Origin: a virus
IMG/VR virus record: IMGVR_UViG_3300013123_000005
Location: 1 to 64,000 of that record
Direction: 5' to 3' (one strand)
DNA: 64,000 nucleotides
In this document: positions 1 to 21,338 of the stretch, piece after piece
How the letters are laid out: each line of letters begins with the position of its first letter
Position numbering within the stretch: position 1 is the stretch's first letter
Position numbers and translations under genes: made by a program
Notes under the pieces: generated by a model
Told to the model about the DNA's origin: nothing
The model's database searches: none
The model's input: the letters and a program-made list of their open reading frames with translations, nothing else

Positions 1-1
1 C

Positions 2-30
2 TTGACAGCCAGCCTTCGATCTGTTATACA
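2..30 (+). promoter_or_regulatory. sigma70-type promoter, copy 1
   Basis: Consensus -35 TTGACA at 2-7, exact 17-base spacer, -10 TATACA at 25-30. Confidence 0.8.
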
Positions 31-38
31 AACAGTCC

Positions 39-67
39 TTGACAGCCAGCCTTCGATCTGTTATACA
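39..67 (+). promoter_or_regulatory. sigma70-type promoter, copy 2
   Basis: -35 TTGACA at 39-44, the same 17-base spacer as copy 1, -10 TATACA at 62-67. Confidence 0.8.
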
Positions 68-75
68 AACAGTCC

Positions 76-104
76 TTGACAGCCAGCCTTCGATCTGTTA
101 TACT
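76..104 (+). promoter_or_regulatory. sigma70-type promoter, copy 3
   Basis: -35 TTGACA at 76-81, identical spacer, -10 TATACT at 99-104. It is the copy nearest the small-gene array and has the best -10. A start near 111 gives a short leader containing the AAGGA-type ribosome site before the ATG at 125. Confidence 0.85.
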
Positions 105-124
105 CTGTTCTGAAAGGATCGAAA

Positions 125-327: not shown

Positions 328-549
328 ATGGCAACTCCATCGAAGCTTAAAATTGGCAATCTGTATACATTTAAATCAACTAAATTTACCAAAGAAAAAC
401 CACATATTCTAATGTTTGTCGAAAAAATAACTTTGCATATTACAACAGAGCCAACATATCGATTTATGTTTCTTGATTTGAATACAGCACAAATTGTGCG
501 TTGTGCTCCATATAAAATCAGCTTGATGATCACGGTTGACAATAAATGA
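328..549 (+). CDS. Small IGxVY-family early protein
   Basis: A 73-residue protein of unknown function. The start is the ATG at 328, two bases after the stop of the interrupted frame; an upstream TTG is possible. It shows the layout shared by this array: IGNLY at residues 9-13, a hydrophobic middle strand (HILMFVEKI), then FLDLNTAQI and a hydrophobic C-terminus. The pattern suggests a small all-beta, possibly SH3-like fold, but that is inference. It overlaps the next gene by four bases (ATGA), implying coupled translation from the triple promoter. Confidence 0.75.
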   Translation: MATPSKLKIGNLYTFKSTKFTKEKPHILMFVEKITLHITTEPTYRFMFLDLNTAQIVRCAPYKISLMITVDNK

Positions 550-821
550 ATAGTAATCTTATTGAACAGATTACACAAAAGTATATTCCCAAACCTCAAT
601 TTACTCTCGATCTCCATGTTGGCTCTGTATATCGAATTGGAACCTATTTGCCGTATGAATCAAACGTGACATACAGATCTTCGCTATATCTGTTTCTTGG
701 AATTCCTGCTGATGCAGCATATGGAACAAAGCGTACATTTCTTGAGATCGATACAAATCAGATTGTTAACATTTCTGCAATGATCGATTTCTTTGAGCAG
801 ATTGATTTGAAGAAAAACTAA
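546..821 (+). CDS. Small IGxVY-family early protein
   Basis: A 91-residue member of the array. VGSVYRIG starts near residue 25 after a longer N-terminal extension, LYLFLG forms the middle strand, and FLEIDTNQI is the conserved acidic-Thr segment. The ATG overlaps the TGA of the previous gene. The next gene begins one base after its TAA. Function unknown; paralogy is judged from motif order, since overall identity is low. Confidence 0.75.
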   Translation: MNSNLIEQITQKYIPKPQFTLDLHVGSVYRIGTYLPYESNVTYRSSLYLFLGIPADAAYGTKRTFLEIDTNQIVNISAMIDFFEQIDLKKN

Positions 822-1067
822 ATGAATCAAGCAGTCAACAATCTAAACCCTATTGTCTCCGTTGGTCAAGTATATCGATTTGCAAAAGAAGACACATATT
901 GGCTTACGATAGCAAAAGGAATCGGATGCTTTCGAGATAATTGGATTTGCCTAAATCTTGAAAACGGCAAGATTCAAGATTGGGATATTGAAGGAAGATC
1001 AAATCTCAGCCATGCAAATTATACGTACTATACTGGCTCTGAACGAATGTACCTAATTGAGACGTAA
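822..1067 (+). CDS. Small IGxVY-family early protein
   Basis: An 81-residue protein with VGQVYRF at residues 14-20 and CLNLENGKI at the position of the conserved FLxLxTxxI segment. It starts immediately after the preceding TAA with no strong ribosome site, so it is probably translated by reinitiation. The C-terminus (YTYYTGSERMYLIE) is tyrosine-rich. Function unknown. Confidence 0.7.
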   Translation: MNQAVNNLNPIVSVGQVYRFAKEDTYWLTIAKGIGCFRDNWICLNLENGKIQDWDIEGRSNLSHANYTYYTGSERMYLIET

Positions 1068-1073
1068 ACAAAC

Positions 1074-1340
1074 ATGACTCCTGATTCTCTTGTTATTGGA
1101 AACGTATATAGCGTTAAATCGCTGATACCAAATGAAATCTGTCTATTGCGATATCCTCTCAATGGTAACGGGTGGAATCCCATTTTTATCTGGAGTACTC
1201 ATCCAAACGTATTTGTAGAATACAATGAAAAGGATCTTGCTTATCGATTCTTGCATGTTCCAACAGGCAACCTATTTGAGATCAAAAACAGAGCATGCAT
1301 CAAACCAATGGAGCAATCAAATTTTAATGAAAATGAATAA
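1074..1340 (+). CDS. Small IGxVY-family early protein
   Basis: An 88-residue protein beginning with IGNVYSV at residues 8-14; YRFLHVPTGNLFEI matches the second family motif. The middle is longer and Trp-rich compared with neighbours, as if a loop between beta strands had expanded. It overlaps the next gene, whose ATG codons lie inside its last codons in another frame. Confidence 0.7.
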   Translation: MTPDSLVIGNVYSVKSLIPNEICLLRYPLNGNGWNPIFIWSTHPNVFVEYNEKDLAYRFLHVPTGNLFEIKNRACIKPMEQSNFNENE

Positions 1341-1599
1341 CTTGATCGGATCGTTGTGCCATTATTATGATGAAAACGACAACGGAAATCGTAAATGGGA
1401 AGTAGCTCAACATAAAAATCAATGGGAACTGTCTTTTACGTCGGAAAAGTTCGATGCATCAGAATTATTTCTTGTCGTTGATCGATTAGCAGTGGCTTTT
1501 TCGACATGTCAATATGACTGTTATGTTGGATTGGATCTATGTTCGACAAAACTTTTTTGGCTTTTTCGTGAAGACTGTATTAAACCAATTGTGTTATAA
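1327..1599 (+). CDS. Small early-region protein, diverged array member
   Basis: A protein of 90 residues if it starts at the ATG at 1327, or 88 from the ATG at 1333; neither has a clear ribosome site. It lacks an IGxVY motif, but its end (VGLDLCSTKLFWLF) resembles the second family segment, so it may be a diverged paralog. It contains a DENDNGN turn. Function unknown. Confidence 0.6.
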   Translation: MKMNNLIGSLCHYYDENDNGNRKWEVAQHKNQWELSFTSEKFDASELFLVVDRLAVAFSTCQYDCYVGLDLCSTKLFWLFREDCIKPIVL

Positions 1600-1600
1600 A

Positions 1601-1825
1601 ATGCATAAATTTATTGTTGGAAACGTATATTATATAACACATCCTCAGCCAAATAAAACGCTTTTACATGAGCCTTATATTTTTCTTTATGAATACGATG
1701 GAGACAGCAGAGAGTGGGGAAGATTTCTCAATATCGAAACAACCAAACAACTTATTTCTAAATTGGATTCTAGTTGGCAACCGATCATCACACAATCCTT
1801 GGCAATCGGACCGATCATCACATAA
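1601..1825 (+). CDS. Small IGxVY-family early protein with duplicated tail
   Basis: A 74-residue protein starting at the ATG directly after the preceding TAA. VGNVYYI at residues 6-12, IFLYEYDGD as middle strand and FLNIETTKQL complete the family signature. The last residues are encoded by the 30-bp tandem duplication at 1781-1840, producing the related segments PIITQSLAIG and PIIT. The same duplicated DNA forms the -35 region of the next promoter, so the gene end and the promoter overlap. Confidence 0.7.
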   Translation: MHKFIVGNVYYITHPQPNKTLLHEPYIFLYEYDGDSREWGRFLNIETTKQLISKLDSSWQPIITQSLAIGPIIT

Positions 1826-1840
1826 TCCTTGACAATCGGT
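1781..1840 (+). repeat. 30-bp tandem duplication
   Basis: Two near-identical 30-bp units (1781-1810, 1811-1840). Differences include CACAAT versus CATAAT and TTGGCA versus TTGACA. The second unit supplies the consensus -35 box of the promoter at 1829. The first unit's TTGGCA (1799-1804) is followed after 16 bases by CATAAT (1821-1826), which could be a second weak promoter. Confidence 0.9.
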
Positions 1841-1857
1841 TGCTCTGTTGCTATACT
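1829..1857 (+). promoter_or_regulatory. sigma70-type promoter inside the small-gene array
   Basis: -35 TTGACA at 1829-1834, 17-base spacer, -10 TATACT at 1852-1857 followed by GTA, the same TATACTGTA seen at 8412 and 21362. It would drive the genes from 1888 onward. Confidence 0.85.
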
Positions 1858-1887
1858 GTAGGCAGATAAAAAACGGAGGTCTTCAAA

Positions 1888-2076
1888 TTGGTTAATGCTC
1901 TCGAAATTGGCAAGACATATAGGCACAGTACTTTGCCAGTTGGACCTTTGCTTTGTATTGAAGAGCATAAAGATTCTAATGATCGTCTAACGGCTTCAAT
2001 GCTCGATATCGAAACTGGTGAGATGCGTCTCATTTATACCAGTAGCAGAGTGATTCTCTTTTTAACAGAGGTTTAA
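1888..2076 (+). CDS. Small IGxVY-family early protein, TTG start
   Basis: A 62-residue protein, first gene after the promoter at 1829. The TTG at 1888 is chosen because a GGAGG ribosome site lies eight bases upstream. IGKTYRH follows at residues 7-13 and MLDIETGEMRLIY is the second family motif. It is close to the minimum size of the family, so the two motifs and their strands appear to be the whole fold. Function unknown. Confidence 0.75.
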   Translation: MVNALEIGKTYRHSTLPVGPLLCIEEHKDSNDRLTASMLDIETGEMRLIYTSSRVILFLTEV

Positions 2077-2077
2077 A

Positions 2078-2392
2078 TTGTCTTCGCTTCCAATTGGAAC
2101 TGTACTAAAGATTAAAAATAGGAACAAATTTTATGTCGTTGCGCTTCATAACGATCATAATTTTTTAAACCTTCAAAATAATCAATTGGTAATATTGACT
2201 GAACGAATTGCGCATGCAACCAAGAAAGTTCCAAATCATCTTGTGTTTCTTCATCTCGACAGTGGAACATTGCTCAAAATGACACAATTACATCTTCTTT
2301 GGGAAGCTCTTGAACGATTACCTTCGAACAATCAACTGAAGTCGGTACAGAAGCAACAATCAACAACTCTCAACAAAGAAGACAGTCTTTGA
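2078..2392 (+). CDS. IGxVY-family protein, possibly with internal duplication
   Basis: A 104-residue protein with a TTG start one base after the preceding TAA (TAAATTG); GAGG lies eight bases upstream. IGTVLKI is near the N-terminus. Two segments resemble the second family motif (NFLNLQNNQL and VFLHLDSGTL), so the protein may be a partial duplication. The C-terminal tail is Gln/Ser/Thr-rich and polar. It overlaps the next gene by four bases. Function unknown. Confidence 0.7.
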   Translation: MSSLPIGTVLKIKNRNKFYVVALHNDHNFLNLQNNQLVILTERIAHATKKVPNHLVFLHLDSGTLLKMTQLHLLWEALERLPSNNQLKSVQKQQSTTLNKEDSL

Positions 2393-2619
2393 GCCACAAT
2401 ATCGAATCCAATTGGGCTTCCAGTATTCCAGACGATCTGATTGGTTGTGCAATCATTGATAACAGATCTGTCCAACTTGGGATTATTTTAGAAAAAAATA
2501 ATAAAGAAATTCTGGTGTTTTGGACAGAAGAGCAAAAGAGTCGTTCATTGGATATCAGTTTGTTGGCATATAAAGTATTTCATGGAGAGTGGCATATTGA
2601 GCAAAGCAATGTGGAATAA
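2389..2619 (+). CDS. Small early-region protein, TTG start
   Basis: A 76-residue protein whose TTG overlaps the preceding TGA (TTGA). LIGCAII, LGIILEKNNKEILVFW and a C-terminal hydrophobic segment give an alternating beta pattern comparable to the neighbours, but the FLxLxT motif is absent. A distant array member or an unrelated small beta protein. Function unknown. Confidence 0.6.
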   Translation: MSHNIESNWASSIPDDLIGCAIIDNRSVQLGIILEKNNKEILVFWTEEQKSRSLDISLLAYKVFHGEWHIEQSNVE

Positions 2620-3031
2620 TCAACCAATTACGTCAATATTCAAATCAAGAAAGCTTGGTGCTAGCACCTACAATAGTTCTCTTAATGACATTTCTGCTCG
2701 TTTTGTAGCCAATCTCATTATTGACAAATTTGGCGTCATTACCAAAAATCGTTGGGGCAGCGAACACTCCAATCATTCAAAACGAGAAAAGTTAACCGAA
2801 CAGTGTATTTTCAGTTGCAATGTTGGCGATACGCTTATAATCAAAGAAGATCGAATTCTTCTGCAAGATACAATGCTCAACAAAGACGATCTGTTGATTA
2901 TTGTATCGAAAGACGAAAGTAGCCTGATGTGCGACGTTCTCAGCGTCGATCAAGCAGTTATATGCAAACTACCAACTTCTGTTAGCAATTACAGTCAATA
3001 TGAACGATGGATTGAAAAGAAAGAGGTATAG
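2609..3031 (+). CDS. Hypothetical early-region protein
   Basis: A 140-residue protein from the ATG at 2609, which overlaps the previous gene; starts further upstream in frame are possible. It is polar at the N-terminus, with a central patch of alternating hydrophobic residues (TLIIKEDRILLQD, DLLIIVSKDE). No family recognised. It continues the same transcription unit. Confidence 0.6.
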   Translation: MWNNQPITSIFKSRKLGASTYNSSLNDISARFVANLIIDKFGVITKNRWGSEHSNHSKREKLTEQCIFSCNVGDTLIIKEDRILLQDTMLNKDDLLIIVSKDESSLMCDVLSVDQAVICKLPTSVSNYSQYERWIEKKEV

Positions 3032-3036
3032 ATTAA

Positions 3037-3354
3037 ATGAAAAAGCAACGACTAAGCATTGAGATTCATCCATTTGAAGAAACAGCAATTCCGATCAGAT
3101 ATTTTGTTGAGCAGGACGGTAACGATGGAACATTCCAAATATCGAGCCTAGGCAACATTTGCTATTTTCGTTCTTTAAATCCTATTGTTAGCGATAGCGA
3201 TAGCAGTATCCTGTTTGTTGATAATGATTGGCTAACTGTCAACAACATTTTTACCAACGAATATGCCAAATGGAACCTAAGCAAGATCTTTTCTTGGTCT
3301 GCCAAAATTGAGGATATCGAAAATGAATCCGAATCCGTTCAATCTGGTGATTGA
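3037..3354 (+). CDS. Hypothetical early-region protein
   Basis: A 105-residue protein, acidic toward the C-terminus (KIEDIENESESVQSGD), with short beta-like stretches (SILFVDNDWLTVNNIF). The start follows an AAGAGG ribosome site. It overlaps the next gene by 32 bases. No family recognised. Confidence 0.6.
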   Translation: MKKQRLSIEIHPFEETAIPIRYFVEQDGNDGTFQISSLGNICYFRSLNPIVSDSDSSILFVDNDWLTVNNIFTNEYAKWNLSKIFSWSAKIEDIENESESVQSGD

Positions 3355-3595
3355 ATGCACTCACTTTCAAGTGATGCATGACTCTGAAATGATTCTTGAT
3401 TTTTGGAGTCCATATTTTCGAATTAACTCCGATCTGATCGGTTCTTCTTTGTTGACAACCCCAATCCACTATGATAGACTGATCATGTTGGTTAACGGAG
3501 TTGAGAATCGAATGGGAACCGAATCTCTGAGAGCTTGGACCAAAGGATTCCTAAGTAACAGCAATATCGAAAGGCAGCTATCACGTGAGCGTTGA
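3323..3595 (+). CDS. Hypothetical early-region protein
   Basis: A 90-residue protein from the ATG at 3323, inside the end of the previous gene; an in-frame TTG at 3308 is an alternative. No recognisable motif. It is predicted to be soluble and overlaps the DUF3228 gene downstream by 11 bases, suggesting coupling. Confidence 0.55.
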   Translation: MNPNPFNLVIECTHFQVMHDSEMILDFWSPYFRINSDLIGSSLLTTPIHYDRLIMLVNGVENRMGTESLRAWTKGFLSNSNIERQLSRER

Positions 3596-4166
3596 TATCG
3601 GACTTCATCCTATTCTTGCTCGTCACACTCCAGAATCTAGGTTTACTCACTGGAACCTAAGCGAAGCAGATCTGATTGAGCGCGTCCAGCTAAACTGGTC
3701 TAAGCGAGTTGTCAGTTATCGGGAAGGAGTCTATGAGGTCGATATTCATCCTTCTGGATTCTTTTCTCCGGTAGTCTATCTGCAAGCTGGTGACACTCTT
3801 GTTGGAAACTATGAGTCTCGAATTGGTTCAGAGACTCCTAGAAAGACGACTCTTGTTTATCGACCCGGAGCAACCAAGAGTCCTGCAAAGGCAGTTAATG
3901 TGATTTGCTATCATCGAGATGTTCTTGCAGAAGATAACGAACAAGTCGATCATGAGTGGAATATTGTTTCTATCAATGCTCGAATCACTGATGAACCAGA
4001 GCCAATGACTGTTGGAACGCTGCTTGCCAATCATTTCAAGACAGACGGTGGGACAGCTACCAATATGACCAGCGAACAGTTTGAGACTGCTCTTCGGACG
4101 AGCTATAACTATTGGAAAGATAAGGGACTTTTGGCTCCAAGTAGCAATTGGTCAACATATGAATAA
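3585..4166 (+). CDS. DUF3228 family protein
   Basis: A 193-residue protein with a GTG start overlapping the previous gene. It carries the features I associate with DUF3228: a GFFSPVVYLQAGD segment, paired Pro-Arg-Lys and K-S-P-A-x-A-V motifs, a YHRDVLAEDNE stretch, and EWNIVSINAR with a following acidic EPEPMT segment. The length fits a whole domain. The biochemical role of the family is not known to me. Codon use looks like its neighbours. Its place in the early array suggests a host-directed role, which is inference. Confidence 0.8.
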   Translation: MSVDIGLHPILARHTPESRFTHWNLSEADLIERVQLNWSKRVVSYREGVYEVDIHPSGFFSPVVYLQAGDTLVGNYESRIGSETPRKTTLVYRPGATKSPAKAVNVICYHRDVLAEDNEQVDHEWNIVSINARITDEPEPMTVGTLLANHFKTDGGTATNMTSEQFETALRTSYNYWKDKGLLAPSSNWSTYE

Positions 4167-4464
4167 CGAACGAATCAGCGAAATTTTAAATCGCCCTTCT
4201 TTCAAGCAAAAAACGATTGTTGCAGACAATTGGGAGTACAAAATTGTTGCAGACAATTGGGAGTGCAAAGAGGATACTGTTACTTTTATCCCAGGCGAAG
4301 CATACAAGAGCTTTTTGGATCGAGAAGCAATTTTTATCTTTGTTGGATATTGGAGAGAAAATGAATATAATTTTCTTTTTCTCACCACAAAGGGCGACTA
4401 TCAATATATGGCAGATTTTATTCAACGTCAATTGGGTTTTGAGAGAGCAGTGTTGTCGAAATGA
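4159..4464 (+). CDS. IGxVY-like early protein with a 9-residue tandem repeat
   Basis: A 101-residue protein from the ATG at 4159, overlapping the end of the DUF3228 gene. An in-frame 27-bp duplication makes IVADNWEYK followed by IVADNWECK. The second half (FIPGEAYKSF, IFIFVGYW, NFLFLTTKGDYQY) follows the order of the IGxVY family, so this may be a paralog with a repeat-bearing extension. Function unknown. Confidence 0.65.
   Translation: MNNERISEILNRPSFKQKTIVADNWEYKIVADNWECKEDTVTFIPGEAYKSFLDREAIFIFVGYWRENEYNFLFLTTKGDYQYMADFIQRQLGFERAVLSK
4216..4269 (+). repeat. 27-bp in-frame tandem duplication
   Basis: Units at 4216-4242 and 4243-4269 differ by one base (TAC versus TGC, Tyr to Cys). The near identity suggests a recent slippage or recombination event. 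Confidence 0.9.
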
Positions 4465-4679
4465 AACGTATCTGGCATATTGGAAAAGTGTATAAACTCA
4501 TATCGCCAGTGTTTACGATGGAAATTCTATATCCAGAGGATACGCTAGCAATTTGCGTGAAAAGTGAATGTCGAAATATGCTACACGATCTTTGCTTTAT
4601 TGTGGAGGGAAGACTAATCAGACTAAGCCGCAATGTGGCTTGTGAAATCATTTCTAGAGAGGAAATTGATCTATCATGA
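4461..4679 (+). CDS. Small IGxVY-family early protein
   Basis: A 72-residue protein with the clear signature IGKVYKL at residues 7-13 and a later hydrophobic strand followed by FIVEGRLIRL. It overlaps both neighbours by four bases (ATGA type), implying strict co-translation. It is the last recognisable member of the array. Function unknown. Confidence 0.75.
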   Translation: MKRIWHIGKVYKLISPVFTMEILYPEDTLAICVKSECRNMLHDLCFIVEGRLIRLSRNVACEIISREEIDLS

Positions 4680-5010: not shown

Positions 5011-5613
5011 ATGAAAACGATCATGGAATCTTGGAGAAAACGAATGCTTTCAGAGTCCGAAAACGATCAGACTCTTCAGATGCTCTTGTCTAAGTCTGCT
5101 ACATTCAGGAAACTGTGGCAAGATATGCACGAAAGCATTGAAGATACCAAATTTCATCTAGGCGAAACAACCCAGGAACACACTCGAAAAGTCGTATCAG
5201 CATTGCGAGAGTTGTCAAAAGATCTTCCAGAAGCCAAACGAACACTATTTGAGCTTCTTGGATTCTTGCATGATATTGGCAAGCCTTCGACTCGTAAATG
5301 GAACGATGAAAAAGGTAAGGTAGTCTTTTATGGTCACGATAAGGCTGGCAAGGAACTAGCGGCAAAAGTGCTCGAAGAGATTGCCTATGAAAACAAAGAC
5401 CTTTTGCTAAGTCTGATTGGGCATCATATGGATATCTTTCAAGCTCTTAACACCAAGCAGTTTGCCTTCTTGGCAAAAGACAAGCGATTTCCATATATTG
5501 AAGAACTAGCCTATATGGCAAAGGCAGATACGCTGGCAATCAACAAGGATCTTAGCAAAGAAATTGATGAGCTAGTAGTCAAAGTAAAGGAATTGAGAAA
5601 CAGTGCAAAATAA
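5011..5613 (+). CDS. HD-domain phosphohydrolase
   Basis: A 200-residue HD-superfamily metal-dependent phosphohydrolase. Visible ligands: His in EHT (near residue 57), LHDIGKP with His87-Asp88, a GHD and later GHH histidines, and a distal Asp near AKADT. The arrangement resembles the HD domain attached to some CCA-adding enzymes (2'-phosphatase, 2',3'-cyclic phosphodiesterase), here as a separate protein upstream of a kinase and a CCA enzyme. The N-terminus MKTIMESWRKRMLSES is amphipathic and contains L13-S-E15-S16, a possible prohead-protease site. No strong ribosome site; the start could also be the ATG at 5023. The substrate is not determinable. Confidence 0.85.
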   Translation: MKTIMESWRKRMLSESENDQTLQMLLSKSATFRKLWQDMHESIEDTKFHLGETTQEHTRKVVSALRELSKDLPEAKRTLFELLGFLHDIGKPSTRKWNDEKGKVVFYGHDKAGKELAAKVLEEIAYENKDLLLSLIGHHMDIFQALNTKQFAFLAKDKRFPYIEELAYMAKADTLAINKDLSKEIDELVVKVKELRNSAK

Positions 5614-6682
5614 GCATCCAAATATCAAGCAGGTTGCTGCGGATACAGCATTAGCTCTTGATTTGTTTTCGGAAGCTTTGTTGGCTGACGCAAATGATGA
5701 AAAGACAAAAGACGTTGTTCAGAAGATCAAGAGCGACGAATTTGAGAAACCAGATCCACAGCGATTCTTGCGGTCAGTCAGTACTGATGCCAAGCATCCA
5801 GAAATGTTGTCAGCTTATTCAACTGCTAATTATGTGACAATGAAGCTGTTCAAGCTTGAAGGCTATAACATCGGATATGCAATCAAATCAGACGGTGATC
5901 TTGTATCTGTTCATAACAACGAGCACGATGTAGCTGGCATTGGAGAGATTTTAGTTGAAAGTGCCGTATCGCATGGAGCAACAAAGCTCGATCACTTTGA
6001 TATACCCATTTTAAATAAAATTTATCAGAAATTCGGCTTTAGGGAATATAAGCGTTATCCGTTCGATCCTCAATATGTTTCAGCCGACTTTATTCGAAAG
6101 TATGGAAAACCGGACGTAATCATGCGAAGCAGAACATTGTCAGAAAACAAAATGAAAGAAATCATGCACAATTTCATGTTGTCTGAATCTTTGTTTGGAC
6201 TTGATGAAGCGGTGGATAGCCGACCAGAACTATATTTGCCAGTTGGCATTAGCGGTTCTGGTAAGTCTTCGTATATCCGAAAGAATTTTGATCCATCCAT
6301 CGTTATTGAACCAGATGCTATTCGCAGGGAAGTAACCGGTTCTGTTAGCGATCAGTCACAAGAGAACAAGGTTTGGGGAATCGTCTTTGCAAGACTGCGA
6401 AAGACTCTACAGCAATATGGTAAGGCAGTGTTGGACGCAACGAATGTTCGTTCCAGAAATCGAATGAGCGTTCTCAAGATGTTCAAAAACGCAAAGAAAA
6501 TTGCCATTGTATTTGACGCCGATCCGGAAATTGCAAAGCAGCGAGTTGCAAAAGATATCTCCAACAAGGTCGATAGAAGCAACGTACCAGCGGACGTAAT
6601 TGATCGTCAATATGCAGCTTTCAAGCAAGATTATCCTCTGATCAATCAACAGTTTGACGAGGTATTTCACGTTAAATCGTAA
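5603..6682 (+). CDS. GNAT-like / P-loop kinase fusion protein
   Basis: A 359-residue two-part protein with a GTG start overlapping the HD gene. Residues about 70-180 resemble a phage GNAT-like domain (GYAIKSDGDLVSV, KFGFREYKRYPFD); this is tentative. Residues about 208-359 are an AAA_33 / polynucleotide-kinase-type domain with Walker A GISGSGKSS at 215-223 and a DATN motif, consistent with RNA or DNA 5' kinase activity. The linker carries M-LSES (cleavage would be after E195) and LDEA (after E202), both of prohead-protease type, just before the kinase domain. The linker start looks like a buried N-terminus, so two cargo genes may have fused. Confidence 0.8.
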   Translation: MQNKHPNIKQVAADTALALDLFSEALLADANDEKTKDVVQKIKSDEFEKPDPQRFLRSVSTDAKHPEMLSAYSTANYVTMKLFKLEGYNIGYAIKSDGDLVSVHNNEHDVAGIGEILVESAVSHGATKLDHFDIPILNKIYQKFGFREYKRYPFDPQYVSADFIRKYGKPDVIMRSRTLSENKMKEIMHNFMLSESLFGLDEAVDSRPELYLPVGISGSGKSSYIRKNFDPSIVIEPDAIRREVTGSVSDQSQENKVWGIVFARLRKTLQQYGKAVLDATNVRSRNRMSVLKMFKNAKKIAIVFDADPEIAKQRVAKDISNKVDRSNVPADVIDRQYAAFKQDYPLINQQFDEVFHVKS

Positions 6683-6699
6683 TAAGGAACCAACATTTA

Positions 6700-8376
6700 A
6701 TGTTTGACGATAAAAAATGGCATCAGGTACTTCGTGAATCAATTTTAGAAGAAGACGAATCTCTTCGTTACGCTTCAAAAGACTATCGAGCAATCGATCC
6801 TCATAATCCACCTTCAATTCAAGAAATTTTAACCAATTGGGTTCAAAAAAATATTGCTCTATATGATGAACATATTCATGCTTATTATCCTGTCAAGCAG
6901 TTGATTCCTTGGCGAGAATACACTTGGTCTAGACAAAATGCTCGAATGTCTCCAGAGGAATACGACGATCTTAAATCTGACATTGCCGAACGAGGTATTC
7001 AAAGTCCATTGATGATTGTTCTTGGCAGAAACGGAAAAGCCAAGATTGGTGAAGGAAACCATAGATTAGCAATTCTAATTGAACTAGGTTATACCGGTCT
7101 TGTTCCAGTTAGATTTTTATTTCATCAAAATGTCGAGAAAAACAGTCAAAATCTATATGAAAGCAAGCTAGCCGAATCTCAAAAAAGTTTCAAACTCCTT
7201 GAAGCTGCTGATATCGGTGGCAAAACCGTCAAGATGATTATGCGAACAATCATGCATGCTGGTGGAAAGCCATATATCATTGGTGGCTCTGTACGCGATG
7301 AAATGATTGGCAAGGAAACTAGATCAAAAGATATCGATTTTGTTGTATGCGGTCTTCCACTAGAATCAATTGCTAATGCTCTCCGGTCTCTCGGCAAGGT
7401 TAATATGGTTGGCAAGTCTTTTGGAGTTGTCAAGGCGACCATCGAAGGTGACGAATATGATTTCGCCATTCCAAGAGCCAAAGAAACAAGAGTTGGGTCT
7501 GGTCATGGAGACTTTGAAATTGTCTTAGATCCTAACGCTCCAATTGAAGAAGATCTTTCTAGGCGAGATTTTACCATCAATGCTCTAGCAAAAGATCCTT
7601 CTGGTAAAATCATTGATATTTTTGGAGGAATTCAAGACCTCAAAAACGGTATTATTCGTGCTGTTGGCATTCCAAAAGAACGTTTTGCAGAAGATCCATT
7701 AAGAATGCTCAGAGCAATTCAATTTGCAACAAGATTCAATTTTGATATTGAACCAAAGACTGCTCAAGCGATTCGAGAAAATAGAGCAGAATTAAGACGA
7801 ATTTCTTCAGAACGAATCTTTGAAGAGTTTACGAAAGCGTGGACAAAGGGATTTGCTGATTCAAGAAAGCTAATTCTGCTATTGAACAAACTTGCCGTTG
7901 GAACAACTTTATTTGGAGTCGATTTTGAGCCTATTGAATGGCAAAATAAAGAACCAGACTATTCAATTAAAACAGCTTTCGTTTCTTGCTTTGTTCGTGG
8001 AGGTGATGAAACAATCCTCAGAGCACCAACGGATCTGTTAGCTCTTTTGTATCTCGCAAGGATCGTATCCAAGACAGAAGCAGAGAACCTTTACAAGATC
8101 AAGAATATTCGAAGAACCAGATTAGAAGATGTAGCGAAAGTCTTCAGAAACATTATGGATATTCGTTTCAGAAATCTAGCTGAAAAGCTAGAAAAAATTC
8201 TTGAGCTGCCAATTGAACCAAAAGAACTTGACGTAACAGGCGAACAACTAATGCAACTAGGTCTTTCTGGTGCTCAGATTGGCGCAGCACAGTACAAAGT
8301 TTTGGAAGCAGTTCATCAAGGTCAGATTCAAAACAATCACCAAGAAATTCTAAACTTTATTTCTCCATTAAATTAA
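6700..8376 (+). CDS. ParB/Srx-like domain fused to CCA tRNA nucleotidyltransferase
   Basis: A 558-residue fusion. Residues about 65-145 form a ParB/sulfiredoxin-like domain with GEGNHR at 117-122. Residues about 185-440 are a class II CCA-adding/poly(A) polymerase head: GGSVRD at 195-200, DID at 211-213 as catalytic carboxylates, RRDFTINAL, and EDPLRMLRAIQFATRF. The C-terminus is helical. It should add or repair the 3' CCA of tRNA, including the tRNA-Arg at 21257, which lacks an encoded CCA. The N-terminus has L11-R-E13-S14, and the linker has LYES, LAES and LLEA at about 152-169, all matching L-x-E/[AS]. The activity of the ParB-like part is unknown. Confidence 0.9.
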   Translation: MFDDKKWHQVLRESILEEDESLRYASKDYRAIDPHNPPSIQEILTNWVQKNIALYDEHIHAYYPVKQLIPWREYTWSRQNARMSPEEYDDLKSDIAERGIQSPLMIVLGRNGKAKIGEGNHRLAILIELGYTGLVPVRFLFHQNVEKNSQNLYESKLAESQKSFKLLEAADIGGKTVKMIMRTIMHAGGKPYIIGGSVRDEMIGKETRSKDIDFVVCGLPLESIANALRSLGKVNMVGKSFGVVKATIEGDEYDFAIPRAKETRVGSGHGDFEIVLDPNAPIEEDLSRRDFTINALAKDPSGKIIDIFGGIQDLKNGIIRAVGIPKERFAEDPLRMLRAIQFATRFNFDIEPKTAQAIRENRAELRRISSERIFEEFTKAWTKGFADSRKLILLLNKLAVGTTLFGVDFEPIEWQNKEPDYSIKTAFVSCFVRGGDETILRAPTDLLALLYLARIVSKTEAENLYKIKNIRRTRLEDVAKVFRNIMDIRFRNLAEKLEKILELPIEPKELDVTGEQLMQLGLSGAQIGAAQYKVLEAVHQGQIQNNHQEILNFISPLN

Positions 8377-8388
8377 AATCTAATCTGC

Positions 8389-8417
8389 TTGACATTTATC
8401 TAAATCTAGGCTATACT
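8389..8417 (+). promoter_or_regulatory. sigma70-type promoter before the nucleotidyltransferase gene
   Basis: -35 TTGACA at 8389-8394, 17-base spacer, -10 TATACT at 8412-8417 followed by GTA. It lies in the 67-base gap before 8444, with a GGAGA ribosome site between. Confidence 0.9.
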
Positions 8418-8443
8418 GTATCTGCAATCGATGGAGACACGTA

Positions 8444-9454
8444 ATGTCGTTCAATATTCCCAAGCATACAATTCTTCTTACAATCGCTGGTTCTAGAGCA
8501 TATGGCATTCATCGCCCAGAATCGGACGTAGATATCAAAGGCGTGATTATTCCTCCTGTTGAATATCTGTACGGTACCAAGCGTTTCGAACAGTTCGATA
8601 AACCAGAAACAATCAAGAACGCATACTTTGATATGCTCAATGATGTGGAAAGGCAGGTTTCCAGAGATATCAAGCTCGAAGGATCTGCCTATGATCTTCG
8701 TAAGTTTGTAAGTCTTGCCGCAGAAAACAACCCAAATATTCTCGAAAGCTTGTTCTGTCGAGATGAAGAAGTAAGATTTATTACTCCGCTTGGACAGAAG
8801 CTAAGAGATAATCGAGACTTGTTTTTGAGCAAGAAGGTTCGTTATAGTCTTGCTGGTTATGCTTTTGCTCAGTTGCAGAGAATTAAGACTCACCGTGAAT
8901 GGCTGCTCAACCCTCCGAAGGTTGAACCGACCAGAGAGTTGTTTGGTCTGCCAACTGTTCACAAGACATTCCAGAGAGAGCACTTGAATGCCCTTCTTAC
9001 GCTCACAAAGCCTGTTTTGGAGAGCCTCGGGCTTTCTCGGGAAGGGATTGACCTGATCTTTAAAGAACGCGCTTACGAGGATGCTAGGCGTCATTGGGAG
9101 CAGTTTAAGAATTGGCAGAAAAATCGCAACCCTGCCCGTGCCGACATTGAAGCAAAATATGGATATGACACCAAGCACGGTGGTCATCTTTATCGTTTGC
9201 TTTCGATGGGCAAGGAAGCATTGCTGACTGGAAAGATCAACGTTTGGCGTGGTGATATTGACGCAGAACAGATTCTTGCAATTCGGGCAGGAATGTGGAG
9301 CTACGATCAGTTGATCGAATGGGCAACGAACATCGAAGCGGAGCTTGACGGACTCTATAAGTCTTGCACTTGTTTGCCTCACAGTCCTGATCGTGAAGGA
9401 ATTGATAAGTTGTGCGTTGAGCTTCACCAGGAATTTCATCAAACAAAGGAATAA
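8444..9454 (+). CDS. Pol-beta superfamily nucleotidyltransferase (RlaP-like)
   Basis: A 336-residue DNA polymerase beta superfamily nucleotidyltransferase. GSRAYG is at residues 16-21 and the metal-binding DVD at 28-30. The C-terminal half has the conserved YDTKHGGHLYRLL and MWSYDQLIEWA segments of phage and bacterial RlaP-like proteins, a family associated with RNA ligases. It likely transfers nucleotides to an RNA end or a protein; the substrate is unknown. It has its own promoter and is followed five bases later by the ligase gene. Unlike neighbours, it lacks the L-x-E N-terminal segment. Confidence 0.85.
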   Translation: MSFNIPKHTILLTIAGSRAYGIHRPESDVDIKGVIIPPVEYLYGTKRFEQFDKPETIKNAYFDMLNDVERQVSRDIKLEGSAYDLRKFVSLAAENNPNILESLFCRDEEVRFITPLGQKLRDNRDLFLSKKVRYSLAGYAFAQLQRIKTHREWLLNPPKVEPTRELFGLPTVHKTFQREHLNALLTLTKPVLESLGLSREGIDLIFKERAYEDARRHWEQFKNWQKNRNPARADIEAKYGYDTKHGGHLYRLLSMGKEALLTGKINVWRGDIDAEQILAIRAGMWSYDQLIEWATNIEAELDGLYKSCTCLPHSPDREGIDKLCVELHQEFHQTKE

Positions 9455-9459
9455 ATTAA

Positions 9460-10353
9460 ATGTCAAGCAATCTGATTCGCCCGATGCTGGCAGTTGACGT
9501 TAAAGACGTTGCCAACATCAAGTTTCCTATTTATGCTCAACCCAAGATCGATGGTATTCGATGCTTGAAGGTAAATGGGCAAATTGTTTCTCGTAATTTC
9601 AAGCCCATTCCAAACAAGTACATTCGTTCTGTTCTTGAACGAATTCTTCCAGAGGGCGTTGATGGAGAAATCGTTGGTGCAAATATGGAAGATTTTCAAG
9701 CAACCGTTAGTGCTGTCATGAATCGAGAAGGCGAACCAGAGTTTTATTACAACGCATTCGATTATGTAGAGGATGCTTTGTTTACTCCGTTTAATAATCG
9801 ATATGCAGCGCTCAAGGAATGGCACAATAGTCAGAATTCCAATATTGTTCGTCTTGTAGAAGTCAAATATATTGAAAATGTTGAAGAATTGCGCGCTTAT
9901 GAAAACGAATGTCTTTCTGCTGGTTATGAAGGTTTGATTCTTCGGAGCCTTTACGGCAAGTATAAGTGTGGTCGAAGCACCATTAATGAACAGCTTTTGC
10001 TTAAACTTAAACAGTTCCAAGATAGCGAAGCAAAAATTGTCGGGTACGAACCTCTAATGCACAACGAGAATGCCAAGGAGAGGGACGTATTTGGGGATTC
10101 CAAGCGTTCCAGCAAAAAGGACGGACTAGTTGCTATGGAAACCTTGGGAGCGCTTCTAGTGGTCGATAACGTCACAAACGTAGACTTTAAAATTGGTACA
10201 GGTTTTGATGCAGCTTTGCGTGAGCAGATTTGGCAAAATCGTGATACTTATATGGGAAAGCTTGTGAAATACAAGTATTTCGCGATTGGTGAAAAAGACA
10301 AGCCACGATTTCCTACGTTCCTTGGATTTAGACACGAGAACGATATGGATTGA
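9460..10353 (+). CDS. ATP-dependent DNA ligase (T7-like)
   Basis: A 297-residue ATP-dependent ligase. Motif I is QPKIDGIRC with the adenylated lysine at 29; VDGEIVG is motif III; EGLILR is motif IV; LLKLK is motif V. The C-terminus is a small OB-fold with KYKYFAIGEKDKPRFP. The size and compact OB match phage T7-type DNA ligases, though a dual RNA/DNA role is possible. It sits five bases after the RlaP-like gene, so it is in the same operon and completes a kinase/nucleotidyltransferase/ligase set. Confidence 0.9.
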   Translation: MSSNLIRPMLAVDVKDVANIKFPIYAQPKIDGIRCLKVNGQIVSRNFKPIPNKYIRSVLERILPEGVDGEIVGANMEDFQATVSAVMNREGEPEFYYNAFDYVEDALFTPFNNRYAALKEWHNSQNSNIVRLVEVKYIENVEELRAYENECLSAGYEGLILRSLYGKYKCGRSTINEQLLLKLKQFQDSEAKIVGYEPLMHNENAKERDVFGDSKRSSKKDGLVAMETLGALLVVDNVTNVDFKIGTGFDAALREQIWQNRDTYMGKLVKYKYFAIGEKDKPRFPTFLGFRHENDMD

Positions 10354-12805: not shown

Positions 12806-14632
12806 ATGATGAAAATTACCGGTAACATTCAAAACGAATTAAAAGAAATGGTTATGGACTTCTATGATTTTGCCAAGCCATATATGAAATTTGATAAAGA
12901 TGTAACGAAAACCAATTTTGTTTCAGATAACGAAAATGCCAAGAAAATCTTGGGAATGACTGGATATTATAATCCAGAAGATTATTCCGTTACAATTTAT
13001 ACTGATCGGCGACACCCAAAAGACATATTACGTTCATTGGCACACGAGTTAGTGCATCATGCTCAAAATTGCAAAGGCGAATTTAATGATGGCTCTTTGG
13101 ATGAAGCAGCAGAAGAAGGTTATGCACAGGTTAATCCGAAGCTTCGAAGCATGGAAAAGCAAGCCATGCTCATCGGAAATATCTGCTTTCGAGATTGGGA
13201 AGATGGAATAAAGACCGGTCGAAACAATTCAAAAGCTCCTAGTTATATTGTAGAAAATCGAGAAAGGTATATTCGTTTGTTGAATCAAGAACAAAATGGA
13301 CTGTTGATGGAACGCGCCCTTAAGACTAAATGGAATCTATCAGAAGCTTATGAAGATCGATCTGTTGAACCAAATATGATGGAAGCAATTGGCGGAAATT
13401 TTGATCGAGTTAATGCTTTAGCGAAAAGATATCAGCAAACACAAGAAGATTCCGATCTTGAAGTGTTGAAACAGGCTTTCGAAGAAAACGTCGTACCAAT
13501 GTTGTCCCAGGCTGGATTGGATTACAAAGGATTTCACAAATACGATGCAATGCTCAAAAGAGAAACTGTTGCAGTGTTCAGAGCTTTGAAAACTGAATCT
13601 GATTATAAGGTTGCGAGAGTTCATATCGATTTAGATCCGTTGACGAAGCTATTTTCAACTTCAGTTGAAACTGATCACAATTTTCTAGAGCGGGATTGGA
13701 ATAGAATCGAAAAGGCAGTAGAATATATCAAACGTGCTCTTGGTCAAGGTCAAGAACCAATTGAAACGCAAGAAAAACCAAGTCTTAAGGAGAATACAGG
13801 AATGAAGAACGTTCCAAAGGCAGGAAAATTCAAGTACACAAAGAAAATCACAAAAGAGAATATCGCCAATATTGTTGAATCATATATGCGTAAGCTCAAG
13901 GAAAGCAAGGGAACACTAGGTCAGACTCAAATTAATGAGATGGTCGCCAACGTTGTCCGCTTCATGATGGAGCAGAATGACAAAAATATGAAGCCCGCTC
14001 AAGGTAAGCCAGCTGGTGCTATGGTGCAAGAGCAAGGCGACAAGAACATGAAGCCAGCGCAGGGCAAGCCTACTGGAGCAATGGTTCAGGAGCAGGGTGA
14101 TAAAAATATGAAGCCCGCCCAAGGAAAACCAAAGGGCGCGATGGTTCAGGAATCTGACGGTGCCAACGAATACAAGTACGAAAAGGCTGGTAACAAGCCA
14201 AAGGGTTCATTAGTTGAGGAAGATCTTGACAAGCTAGTCAATGAAGTGTTGGGTGAGTTTAACGAATCTTATGGCGACGTAGATCCTTCTGCACCTTGGT
14301 CTTCGGCTGATGAATTTGGCAATTCGACTCCAAGTGATGCTTATGGTCCTGGCGACACCTTCACCGGCAATCCTCGCGATGCCGGGCTAGAAACTGATGT
14401 TAACAACTATGCCGATACTGAGCTTGGAATGGACGAAGATATTGTTCCTCCAACTCCTGATGCAACAAATACTCTCACCGCTGAACCAGAACCAAACTGG
14501 CTATATGGTGATGAGCCTCTAGCCGAAGAAAAGGAAATTTATGAGCGTTGTGCTCCTGGCTCAAAAGATAAGCTTTATGAGGGTCGTCATAGTCGTACAG
14601 CCAAGAAGCTTCTTTCTTGGGCAGTTCGATAA
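12806..14632 (+). CDS. HExxH metallopeptidase-like protein with 20-residue repeats
   Basis: A 608-residue protein. Residues about 40-140 contain HELVHH (His80-Glu81-His84) and a following glutamate (E117), consistent with a zinc metallopeptidase. Residues about 392-450 hold three 20-residue repeats beginning DKNMKPAQGKP and ending GAMVQE. The remainder is acidic and Pro/Gly-rich with low complexity. L-x-E/[AGS] sites occur internally (LSEA, LKES). It could be a virion-associated protease or a packaged protein; a head-maturation role is only inference. Two in-frame ATGs start it; the first is used. Confidence 0.75.
   Translation: MMKITGNIQNELKEMVMDFYDFAKPYMKFDKDVTKTNFVSDNENAKKILGMTGYYNPEDYSVTIYTDRRHPKDILRSLAHELVHHAQNCKGEFNDGSLDEAAEEGYAQVNPKLRSMEKQAMLIGNICFRDWEDGIKTGRNNSKAPSYIVENRERYIRLLNQEQNGLLMERALKTKWNLSEAYEDRSVEPNMMEAIGGNFDRVNALAKRYQQTQEDSDLEVLKQAFEENVVPMLSQAGLDYKGFHKYDAMLKRETVAVFRALKTESDYKVARVHIDLDPLTKLFSTSVETDHNFLERDWNRIEKAVEYIKRALGQGQEPIETQEKPSLKENTGMKNVPKAGKFKYTKKITKENIANIVESYMRKLKESKGTLGQTQINEMVANVVRFMMEQNDKNMKPAQGKPAGAMVQEQGDKNMKPAQGKPTGAMVQEQGDKNMKPAQGKPKGAMVQESDGANEYKYEKAGNKPKGSLVEEDLDKLVNEVLGEFNESYGDVDPSAPWSSADEFGNSTPSDAYGPGDTFTGNPRDAGLETDVNNYADTELGMDEDIVPPTPDATNTLTAEPEPNWLYGDEPLAEEKEIYERCAPGSKDKLYEGRHSRTAKKLLSWAVR
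13979..14155 (+). repeat. 60-bp coding repeat, three copies
   Basis: Units at 13979-14038, 14039-14098 and 14099-14155 (last one slightly short). The protein unit is nearly invariant, while DNA copies differ mostly at third codon positions (GCC/GCA, AAG/AAA, GGT/GGC). The repeat therefore looks old and kept by selection on the protein. Confidence 0.9.
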
Positions 14633-14660
14633 ATCAAACTAAAATTATAAGAGGTCTATA

Positions 14661-15002
14661 ATGATTCCAGTTGCAGTATTAAATCGTCTTAAGAAACAAG
14701 CGCAACAGAGGCACGAAAAGCTGGTTCTCAATGTGCCACCGACAAAGCAAGATATCGTCACAACTGCGCCCGTTGCAATTGAAGAAAAAGTTCCAACAAT
14801 TACGGTGATCGAAACGTTTAAGGTGGGTCAAGAGTTGGCAGAAGAACCGTCAAGCGCAGTTGTAGATTCAATTCCGGAACCGGCAACAGTTCCAGAAATG
14901 ACAAAAAAAGAAATCATGAAGGCATTAACTGAGGCTGGTATCACATTCGACAAGTACCGAACTCGTGCCGAACTTTTGGAATTATTGCCAACGAATGATT
15001 AA
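14661..15002 (+). CDS. Small protein with HeH/SAP-like C-terminal domain
   Basis: A 113-residue protein with a good AAGAGG ribosome site. The N-terminal 25 residues are basic and helical, the middle is a Pro/Val/Glu-rich linker, and the last 35 residues (KKEIMKALTEAGITFDKYR) match the helix-extended-helix fold of HeH/SAP-like DNA- or RNA-binding segments. Possibly a small nucleic-acid-binding or scaffold-associated protein. It overlaps the next gene by eight bases. Confidence 0.65.
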   Translation: MIPVAVLNRLKKQAQQRHEKLVLNVPPTKQDIVTTAPVAIEEKVPTITVIETFKVGQELAEEPSSAVVDSIPEPATVPEMTKKEIMKALTEAGITFDKYRTRAELLELLPTND

Positions 15003-15231
15003 TCACGATGATATGACAAGAAGATTTCTTCTGTACGAAGGAGAAATGCAGGAATCAGGAGTCTTTTCCAGAATTCAAGCAATTCAAGATCTTCTGTCTA
15101 AAATCTCTCCAAAATCTCAAATGGACGTTCGACGTATCGAAATGATTGACGACAACCTAAGAGCATTACGTCGAATTGTCAGAGCCTTAACTTCAAAGGA
15201 TTCACAAGAAGCCGATATCTCAGGAGAATAA
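14995..15231 (+). CDS. Small helical protein with LYEG N-terminal site
   Basis: A 78-residue protein from the ATG at 14995; a shorter form from the ATG at 15013 is possible. RRFLLYEGEMQ at residues 9-19 includes L-Y-E-G, a prohead-protease-type tetrapeptide. The rest is a predicted helical hairpin ending in acidic residues. No family recognised. It is directly followed by the 781-residue multidomain enzyme. Confidence 0.65.
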   Translation: MINHDDMTRRFLLYEGEMQESGVFSRIQAIQDLLSKISPKSQMDVRRIEMIDDNLRALRRIVRALTSKDSQEADISGE

Positions 15232-15237
15232 AGTATC

Positions 15238-17583
15238 ATGCAACACTCTAGAATCTTGCTGACGGAGGGTGGTGTTGCAGGACACATGATGCACCTGTAT
15301 GAAAATCCAGATCTGTCTTTCACTGATATCAAGTCAATATTCTACAAAGCTGCAAATGGAAAGTTAGCCGGTACTGAAAAAACTGACGGTCAGAATCTAT
15401 ATGTTTCTTATTCTGTCAAGGAAAATCGTGCAAAAGCTGCCAGAAACAAGGGCAACATCAAGTCTGGTGGATTGAATGTTCAAGAGCTAGCAGAAAAATT
15501 TGCTGATCGTGGAGATTTAACTTATACGTTTACGGAATCTTTTGCGGCTTTCGAAAAAGCAATGCAGACTTTAGATGAAAAAACGCTGATTGGGATTTTT
15601 GGTCCGGACGCAAATGTGTTCTATAACGCAGAAATCATGGACCCTCGCAGTTCGAACGTTATTCATTATGATACAAAATCGTTAGTATTTCATCAAGTTG
15701 GCCATGCCGAATTCGAAAGAGAAACTGGCACGGTAAAAGATTCTGATGTTAGCGAAAATGTTAGACTTTTGAACAAAACAGTTCAAGAGATTGAAAAGCG
15801 TTTGCAGCAGACCGCTGGAGATGAGTATCGTCTTAAGATTAACGCGGTGCGTTATCTCAAGTTTATGAGCGAACAGAAGCCCTATGAGCATGCAATTGTT
15901 AGGCTCGATCGCGAATTGCAAAAATATCACTTAACTGAAGAAGAAACGATATCGGATTATTTGGTTGCGCGTATGTTACCAGAGGTAAACAAGCGCGTAC
16001 CAAACGCTAGTAAAGAAGCAAAGGCAATGTTGCTTAAGCGTTTATTGGGCGCAGAAGGATTCTCTGCCAACGACGTATTGGCTTTATTTCCAAAAGAACA
16101 GAAGCAATTAATTCGTGATATTATCAGAGAACAGTCGACTCTACTAAAGATGGCAATTTGGCCAATAGAAGACATTGTGCATGATTTTTCTGTCGAAGCG
16201 TTAAAGGGATTGCAGTCTGCTTTTATCCTTGACAACGAAAAGGAAGTGCAAAGACTTCGAGATGAGGTTGCTACGGCTGTTGCAGCAATCAAAAATTCTA
16301 AAAACGAAGATGCAATGGTTATTTTGCAGCAACAAATGAAGAAACTGAAGGAAGTTGACAATATTCATACTGCTGCCGAAGGCTTTGTGTTCGTTTATAA
16401 CGGACAAACATACAAATTTACTGGCAACTTTGCGCCGATGAATCAGTTGTTGGGATTGTTCAAGTATGGTCGCGGCAATATTCCGGCAATGATTAAAGAG
16501 GAAGATGGTGCCGTCACAGAACCAGTAGAAATCGATTCTGGTTTTCATTTGCGTGGCGGAAGAAAGTTGGCTTTGATTCCTGGTGCATTTAAGCCACCTC
16601 ACAAGGGTCACTTGGAGATGGTTAAAGCGTATGCTCAACATTCAGACAAAGTGATTGTTTTTATGTCGCCATTGCCAAGAAGAATGCCGGATGGTAAAGA
16701 AATGACATTCCAGATCGCAAAAAGCATTTGGATTACATATCTCAAGGCAGAGAAGCTTAATGATCGAGTTGAAGTGCTAGAATCTCCAGTCAATTCTCCA
16801 GTTGGAGCAGTATACTTGTTCGTCGCAAACGAGAAAGATGATCCTGAATGGGCGCAACCAGGGGATATTATCGCTTTGGGCGTATCGACAAAGGGTGGAG
16901 ATCAAGAAAGGTTCGAAAAGGCTCAAAAATATGCCAGAGAAGGTGTAACTGTATTGAGTGGCGAAGAGGCTGCTGTAGCACCAACTATTGAGGGTGGTGT
17001 TGAATTATCCGCTAGTGATATGCGCGCCGCCATTACGAATGGCGATCTCAAATCGTTCACTAGATTTATTCCAGATTCTTTGAGACAATATGCGGAACAA
17101 ATCATGGTCAACATTCAAAAGAAGCTGGAACAGCAATCAAATGCCTTAATCAAGGAGCGATTGATTCGTTTTATTGACAAGAAATTATTCGAAGCTCTTA
17201 CTGGAAGGATCGATAACAGTCTAGATATTCCGAGAGAAGCTTTGCCGCAAATCAAGGATATGGACGATTTTCGAAAGTACTTAAACCGTCGTAGTCGCTC
17301 AATCAAATATGTTGAAAAATCGATTCGACCAAGAGATATAATGCCAATTCAAAAGGAATTTGATCCTGCAAAAGTAGAAAAATTCAAGAAATGGCTGATT
17401 GATAATCCTCAAGAACCTAGAAAACCAGTCGTGATATCAAAAGATTTGTATGTTATCGATGGACATCATCGTTGGTTGGCGGCTATGGATCATCCAAATA
17501 CACCGGTTGAAGTGTTGCAAATCAATTTACCGTTTGCTGAAGTACTTAAATTAGCTAAACAATATGCAGCCACGAAGGCATAA
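15238..17583 (+). CDS. Three-domain ligase-like / HxGH nucleotidylyltransferase / ParB-like protein
   Basis: A 781-residue fusion. Residues about 10-410 resemble the covalent nucleotidyltransferase (ligase) superfamily: EKTDGQN with candidate lysine 48, then EGFVFVYNG near 381 and YKFTG near 393, like motifs IV and V. Residues about 445-640 are an HxGH nucleotidylyltransferase: IPGAFKPPHKGH with HKGH at 455-458, then an SASDMR segment, as in NMN adenylyltransferases. Residues about 690-781 are a ParB/Srx-like domain with DGHHR at 741-745. The N-terminus has L8-T-E10-G11 and the linker after the second domain has LFEA (cut after E652). NAD synthesis or repair-linked adenylylation are the leading guesses. 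Confidence 0.8.
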   Translation: MQHSRILLTEGGVAGHMMHLYENPDLSFTDIKSIFYKAANGKLAGTEKTDGQNLYVSYSVKENRAKAARNKGNIKSGGLNVQELAEKFADRGDLTYTFTESFAAFEKAMQTLDEKTLIGIFGPDANVFYNAEIMDPRSSNVIHYDTKSLVFHQVGHAEFERETGTVKDSDVSENVRLLNKTVQEIEKRLQQTAGDEYRLKINAVRYLKFMSEQKPYEHAIVRLDRELQKYHLTEEETISDYLVARMLPEVNKRVPNASKEAKAMLLKRLLGAEGFSANDVLALFPKEQKQLIRDIIREQSTLLKMAIWPIEDIVHDFSVEALKGLQSAFILDNEKEVQRLRDEVATAVAAIKNSKNEDAMVILQQQMKKLKEVDNIHTAAEGFVFVYNGQTYKFTGNFAPMNQLLGLFKYGRGNIPAMIKEEDGAVTEPVEIDSGFHLRGGRKLALIPGAFKPPHKGHLEMVKAYAQHSDKVIVFMSPLPRRMPDGKEMTFQIAKSIWITYLKAEKLNDRVEVLESPVNSPVGAVYLFVANEKDDPEWAQPGDIIALGVSTKGGDQERFEKAQKYAREGVTVLSGEEAAVAPTIEGGVELSASDMRAAITNGDLKSFTRFIPDSLRQYAEQIMVNIQKKLEQQSNALIKERLIRFIDKKLFEALTGRIDNSLDIPREALPQIKDMDDFRKYLNRRSRSIKYVEKSIRPRDIMPIQKEFDPAKVEKFKKWLIDNPQEPRKPVVISKDLYVIDGHHRWLAAMDHPNTPVEVLQINLPFAEVLKLAKQYAATKA

Positions 17584-20486: not shown

Positions 20487-20507
20487 ACAGTTGAAAGTGG
20501 CATAAGG

Positions 20508-20801
20508 ATGCGAAAGTTTGATTATAAGGTTGGCGATGCCGTCAGAGTGACGTTTTTTGATCGGATTTATGATCCGTATACTGACGAAATTAATCTTGAA
20601 GAGCCAAGTGCGATTCATGAAGATTGGATTGGCGTCATTTTGTTTGTAATGGAAGAAAAAGGCGATGTGGACTGTTTGCGTGTGGATATGCAGACTAAAC
20701 AAGCAATTGCTGGAATCCATATGAACAAAACTACTGCAATTGGTCGACACAGAGGAAATCGCGTAACCTATATGAAGGTAGAGGTAATCAAAAGTGAATA
20801 G
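20508..20801 (+). CDS. Small beta-rich protein
   Basis: A 97-residue protein from the ATG at 20508. Upstream TTG starts are open, but they would lie within the promoter, so this ATG is preferred. FDYKVGDAVRVTF near the N-terminus is typical of small SH3-like barrels, followed by an acidic loop and WIGVILFVMEEK. It may be a distant relative of the IGxVY proteins. Function unknown. Confidence 0.65.
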   Translation: MRKFDYKVGDAVRVTFFDRIYDPYTDEINLEEPSAIHEDWIGVILFVMEEKGDVDCLRVDMQTKQAIAGIHMNKTTAIGRHRGNRVTYMKVEVIKSE

Positions 20802-21256: not shown

Positions 21257-21330
21257 GCGCCAATAGCCTAGCGGATCAGGCACCAAACTTCTAATTTGGC
21301 TTTACGGATGTTCGAATCATCCTTGGCGCG
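21257..21330 (+). tRNA. tRNA-Arg (anticodon TCT)
   Basis: A 74-nt cloverleaf: acceptor GCGCCAA pairs with TTGGCGC (21323-21329), D-arm GCCT/AGGC, anticodon stem CCAAA/TTTGG around loop CTTCTAA (anticodon TCT), T-arm GGATG/CATCC with TTCGAAT loop, discriminator G at 21330. CCA is not encoded (CTT follows). It reads AGA/AGG, codons used often in this AT-rich sequence. The phage CCA enzyme at 6700 could finish its 3' end. Confidence 0.93.
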
Positions 21331-21338
21331 CTTTATAC

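Follow-up and report, generated by a model that had tools for sequence, protein, structure and literature searches.

Positions 328–4679 of the window (the 64,000 nucleotides of viral DNA analyzed here) hold 15 short genes, all on the plus strand and most of them abutting or overlapping by 4 nucleotides (Table 1). In seven of the 15 (A, B, C, D, F, G and O), the encoded protein has a strict [VI]Gx[VLT]Y motif close to its N-terminus; H is an eighth member with IGTVL in its place. The strict motif occurs seven times in the 1,440 residues encoded by the array and twice in the 28,924 residues of the other genes of the phage, and shuffling yields it 0.05 times on average. The array is preceded by at least 2.8 tandem copies of a 37-bp promoter unit (positions 1–103), inside which the contig begins. 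A frame at 125–325, downstream of the promoter repeats and ahead of gene A, has one internal TGA and a member-like end (YTTLDLETLEL); considered as a broken member, it was rejected on a profile score at background.

The window corresponds to bases 1–64,000 of the 82,396-bp IMG/VR virus contig IMGVR_UViG_3300013123_000005. The end of this contig is overlapped by a second record (G001, IMGVR 3300013125_000020; 99.99% identity over 23,367 bp), which adds 13,324 bp and makes 95,720 bp of one phage readable. The portal protein shares 49–57% identity with those of a large group of uncultured phages and 43% with its best match among isolates (Microcystis phage Mel-JY01, the others being lower), so the phage is only distantly T4-like. 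The core module conserved in its relatives starts at position 12,218, and the array lies upstream, in a variable region.

Table 1. Features of the array and a separate VGDLV-type gene (window positions; ranks are among the ORFs of the phage).
Feature	Position	Strand	Description
Promoter repeat	1..111	+	37-bp unit, TTGACA-17-TATACA/T, at least three -35/-10 pairs
Gene A	328..549	+	IGNLY, 73 aa; SH3-like barrel predicted by AF2
Gene B	546..821	+	VGSVY, 91 aa; clear paralog of X3 (z 8.1)
Gene C	822..1067	+	VGQVY, 81 aa; weakest member
Gene D	1074..1340	+	IGNVY, 88 aa; SH3-like core, confident prediction
Gene E	1327..1599	+	Without strict motif
Gene F	1601..1825	+	VGNVY, 74 aa
Second promoter block	1780..1857	+	Duplicated 30-bp unit (1780-1839), then TTGACA-17-TATACT (1829-1857), before G
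Gene G	1888..2076	+	IGKTY, 62 aa; TTG start, good Shine-Dalgarno
Gene H	2078..2392	+	IGTVL, 104 aa; VGDLV profile rank 4 of 539
Gene I	2389..2619	+	Without strict IGxVY; VGDLV profile rank 3 of 539
Gene J	2609..3031	+	Without strict motif; VGDTL segment at C-terminus
Gene K	3037..3354	+	Without strict motif
Gene L	3323..3595	+	Without strict motif
Gene M	3585..4166	+	DUF3228 (PF11539, 1.6e-8); outside IGxVY family
Gene N	4159..4464	+	PGEAY variant; weak as family member
Gene O	4461..4679	+	IGKVY, 72 aa
VGDAV gene	20505..20801	+	VGDLV-type, rank 2 of 539; TTGACA-17-TATCCT upstream at 20458

As the members had first been picked by the motif, we re-tested them using leave-one-out HMMs against 7,053 background ORFs of the relatives. 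A, B and D were outscored by 0–1 background ORFs, O by 4, and F, G and H by 8–10, which sets seven of the eight members clearly above background; C, outscored by 64, stands only weakly above it. Overall identity to gene A ranges from 13 to 32%, and genes F and D are identical at 18 of 20 nucleotides across the motif. E and I–N, all seven of which lack the strict motif, were tried as members and set aside, as the family profile gave no support. Gene N contains an in-frame 27-bp tandem duplication at 4216–4269 (IVADNWEYK/IVADNWECK).

An independent test came from X3 (91543–91821, in the G001 extension), a gene located between the major capsid and neck genes that had not been included in the HMM: it scored above all but 12 background ORFs, and its alignment with B (z = 8.1) extends through β2. 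X3 belongs to a small cluster (90960–92108) within an island that is absent from the relatives. The island (86931–92108) also holds two homing-endonuclease-like genes, a reversed gene and a lysozyme-like gene, and X3 is one of its four small genes. The earlier note had claimed at least seven neighbouring genes sharing an I/V-G-x-V/L/T-Y order, arisen by local amplification with divergence. Motif enrichment and the leave-one-out profiles confirmed the shared motif, and the amplification is likewise supported; the members do cluster within 328–4679, but E and I–N interrupt them, so that not all are contiguous. Searches of Pfam, PHROG, NCBIfam, PADLOC and PDB sequences with the array proteins returned no convincing family match, tblastn searches of phages with F, C, G and a consensus as queries found no relatives, and pattern scans of viral and genome contigs for relatives of B+C+D, B/X3 and A/D found nothing.

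An AlphaFold (AF2) model of gene A, computed with ten paralogs, shows a five-strand SH3-like barrel (pLDDT 84.7, pTM 0.71) with strands at residues 12–15, 28–36, 43–50 and 55–59, a short helix and a last strand at 67–69. To fold B, C and D, we joined them into one read-through frame in which Q stands in for TAA, a substitution made for modelling only. In this fusion D adopts the topology of A (pLDDT about 80–89), B is predicted with five strands consistent with the layout of A (pLDDT about 57–73), and AF2 was uninformative on the fold of C. The models thus confidently predict that A and D share a five-strand SH3-like barrel whose last strand follows a short helix. The predicted strand map is best explained by β1 corresponding to IGxVY, β2 to the hydrophobic strand and β3 to the FLxLxTG segment. 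The array and its predicted fold are well supported, and the common ancestry and common fold proposed by the earlier note gain from the leave-one-out profiles, the B–X3 homology and the matching models of A and D; the comparison of predicted structures holds for A and D, is consistent for B and gave no usable fold for C.

Foldseek searches with the model of A retrieved small barrels of EF-P/eIF5A, the UvrD Tudor domain, Mfd, WYL and PWWP, with weak E-values (best 0.06 in the PDB) for a type of fold that matches many things. The best mutual PDB match by TM-score was the Tudor domain with which UvrD binds RNA polymerase (0.64/0.62). Matches of the B–C–D fusion model were discarded as uninformative, since they follow the fusion, in which only D is confident. 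In the viral structure library BFVD, A has its top matches among small viral proteins that are uncharacterised. Some ten of the best 50 come from a single UniProt accession block (A0A516L/M) and several of these are numbered close together, a hint that further phages encode sets of small barrels of this kind.

Across the whole 95.7 kb, promoter matches of at least 11/12 on the gene strand occur only at 76, 1829 and 8389. The earlier note's strong promoters are borne out by these sigma-70 consensus matches in two repeat-bearing blocks. A scan of viral contigs for the promoter repeat found no other occurrence, and no T4 TATAAATA late promoters were found on the gene strand in intergenic gaps. 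In the complete relative G005 (203.7 kb, with repeated ends), the 17.3-kb array region holds 10 of the 17 promoters matching at least 11/12 (p=2e-7), and the structural block (29–139 kb) has no such promoter. From these promoter sequences we infer that the array is probably transcribed early, by way of host sigma-70 promoters. Its assignment to an early region, also made in the earlier note, fits the promoter positions indirectly, but a related cluster also sits among the head genes. The product of the gene at 34846–35646 may be a sigma factor (weak match to Sigma70_r2, E 0.013; about 50% conserved in relatives), perhaps the late sigma.

In the relatives, the corresponding variable region, again upstream of the conserved core, contains rows of genes encoding proteins of 50–75 aa that start with MKVGDLV and often end with LEVISESR. 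G007 has 28 of these VGDLV genes, G005 16 and G009 15, and the arrays among the records listed reach 30 genes and are rich in sigma-70 promoters. Their junctions share GAGGTGATCAGTGAAAGTCGGTGA, which encodes EVISESR and a stop in one frame, a Shine-Dalgarno sequence, and MKVGD in the other frame; a scan for the junction listed at least 120 matches. At least 1,246 array members were counted in at least 124 records, and 520 of the 699 adjacent pairs among those listed overlap by exactly 14 nucleotides; as some of the records overlap in their loci or come from near-identical strains, the counts are not independent. The MKVGDLV...LEVISESR string was not found in the literature searched. The VGDLV arrays are a widespread and apparently undescribed pattern in uncultured phages, one into which the orphan genes of a single phage may now be tied.

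Near-identical phage strains record exchanges of single genes. L247 and L266 are 98–100% identical except for one gene, in which the start and end are kept and the middle differs; one gene likewise distinguishes L167 from L265 (98–100% identical), and in L217 compared with L214 the start of one VGDLV gene is fused at the junction to the body of its neighbour. The difference between L186 and L209 was considered as a further swap and rejected, the differing gene not being a barrel gene. These exchanges are best explained by conserved VGDLV junctions that let single genes be swapped. G007 carries exact 53-nt and 64-nt repeats, the latter holding a TTGACA promoter-like element, which indicates recent duplication. 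In L102, identical 64-nt copies with a TTGACA...TACATT promoter-like element lie within one array (2165–2228 and 3452–3515), and the gene starts at 1999 and 2232 are identical over 53 nt and continue into different gene bodies.

The window array resembles the VGDLV arrays in its sigma-70 promoters, in its site upstream of the conserved core and in being a tandem set of tiny single-domain SH3/KOW-like proteins. It differs in that its proteins have IGxVY and other ends instead of the MKVGDLV start and the LEVISESR end, and in that the 14-nt dual-coding junction is absent. Direct comparison of the two families by hhalign was not significant (P=0.26). The two are bridged by a VGxLY subfamily found within the arrays of the relatives: it merges by profile with VGDLV members, it matches the window family (hhalign P=5.5e-4), and among the 539 ORFs of the window phage its profile places family members at ranks 1, 2, 4, 6 and 7 (p=5e-7). 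The four best ORFs of the window phage by the VGDLV profile are those at 90960 and 20469, I (2389) and H (2078), and gene I looks by its sequence like the related VGDLV type. Common ancestry of the window family and the VGDLV arrays is therefore likely on sequence grounds, and falls short of proof because the first strand, which the families share, carries much of the signal in both profile results. We tentatively propose, at slightly under even odds, that this phage clade diversifies tiny SH3-like binders by recombining a cassette array, in which each junction combines a protein end, a ribosome-binding site and the next start and permits in-frame swaps; the window array would be a diverged descendant that lost the junction or never had it.

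Directly downstream of the array, positions 5011–10353 encode a putative RNA/tRNA-repair set: an HD phosphoesterase and an AAA_33 P-loop kinase, both of which match phrog_6931 (HD-kinase family) and by sequence seem to resemble a split HD-kinase, together with a ParB-like protein and CCA-adding enzyme, RlaP (PF10127) and an ATP-dependent ligase. Repair sets of this kind are known from counter-defence: in jumbo phages, RlaP and CCA-adding enzymes are described as answers to host attack on tRNA (PMC7824862). Small genes behind a shared strong promoter include anti-defence genes in archaeal viruses (PMC11065993); those sets resemble the window in combining small diverse genes with a repeated strong promoter, but they have archaeal promoters and their genes are mostly unrelated to one another, whereas the window genes are paralogs. 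The expansion also recalls Bacillus phage G, for which PMC7824862 describes about 35 zinc ribbons as a lineage-specific expansion of one small domain, although the fold is another and the passages on it report no tandem swapping array. A comparison of the array proteins with the PADLOC defence library gave no convincing match, and no known anti-defence family was matched. By analogy with these systems, host takeover or counter-defence would be the most likely use of the array.

We therefore favour, with a probability of about 0.55, the interpretation that the window holds a diverged array of small early SH3-like binding modules for host takeover or counter-defence. Its genes would be diverged tandem paralogs from one family of tiny single-domain SH3-like proteins, and the array a diverged counterpart of the large KOW/SH3-like arrays of the relatives. 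Shortly after infection, strong host sigma-70 promoters would drive production of a range of small barrels, each with its own host protein or nucleic acid as target, and duplication and recombination would renew the set in the service of takeover and counter-defence. If the members bind host targets, such arrays would offer a ready-made collection of small natural inhibitors and a direct way to test how phage counter-defence evolves.

The barrels could alternatively be KOW/Tudor-like binders of nucleic acid or RNA polymerase that tune host or phage transcription or translation, as T4 MotB or NusG modules do. The UvrD Tudor domain as top match by TM-score agrees with this interpretation, as do the Mfd, EF-P and eIF5A matches, the Pfam KOW match of one VGDLV relative (4e-5) and the weak resemblance of the VGDLV profile to NusG, eS4 and uL24. 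T4 MotB, a DNA-binding KOW protein made early (PMC7827196), resembles the window proteins as a phage accessory protein for which an SH3-like/KOW domain is predicted; it is, however, a single-copy protein with two domains (KOW and OB), whereas the window members are single-domain proteins of 62–104 aa. No scanned window member matched Pfam KOW (PF00467), the profile comparison of the window family with MotB was not significant, and the rapidly diverging copies are more numerous than a single regulator should require. This is the main alternative, though we consider it unlikely.

A further possibility is that recombination produced the array almost neutrally, short genes accumulating and being replaced by way of their recombinogenic ends while contributing little function. 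This would account for the extreme divergence, the tandem duplications, the repeated promoters, the 27-bp duplication in N and the junction-mediated gene loss seen in relatives. Open frames, the barrel pattern and strong promoters nevertheless persist in more than 100 records, and expression from strong promoters has a cost, which makes such an origin improbable. That otherwise unrelated small proteins share just a short motif is very improbable, since the low identity to A and the weak statistics for C and H are outweighed by leave-one-out scores above background, the B–X3 alignment through β2 and the same topology in A and D.

Other features were seen outside the array. The conserved gene at 12806–14632 contains three copies of a 60-bp repeat (13969–14151). 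In L002, the terminase large subunit (6937–9000) and the prohead protease (14113–15846) carry apparent inteins. The window also encodes a tRNA-Arg (TCT) at 21257–21331.
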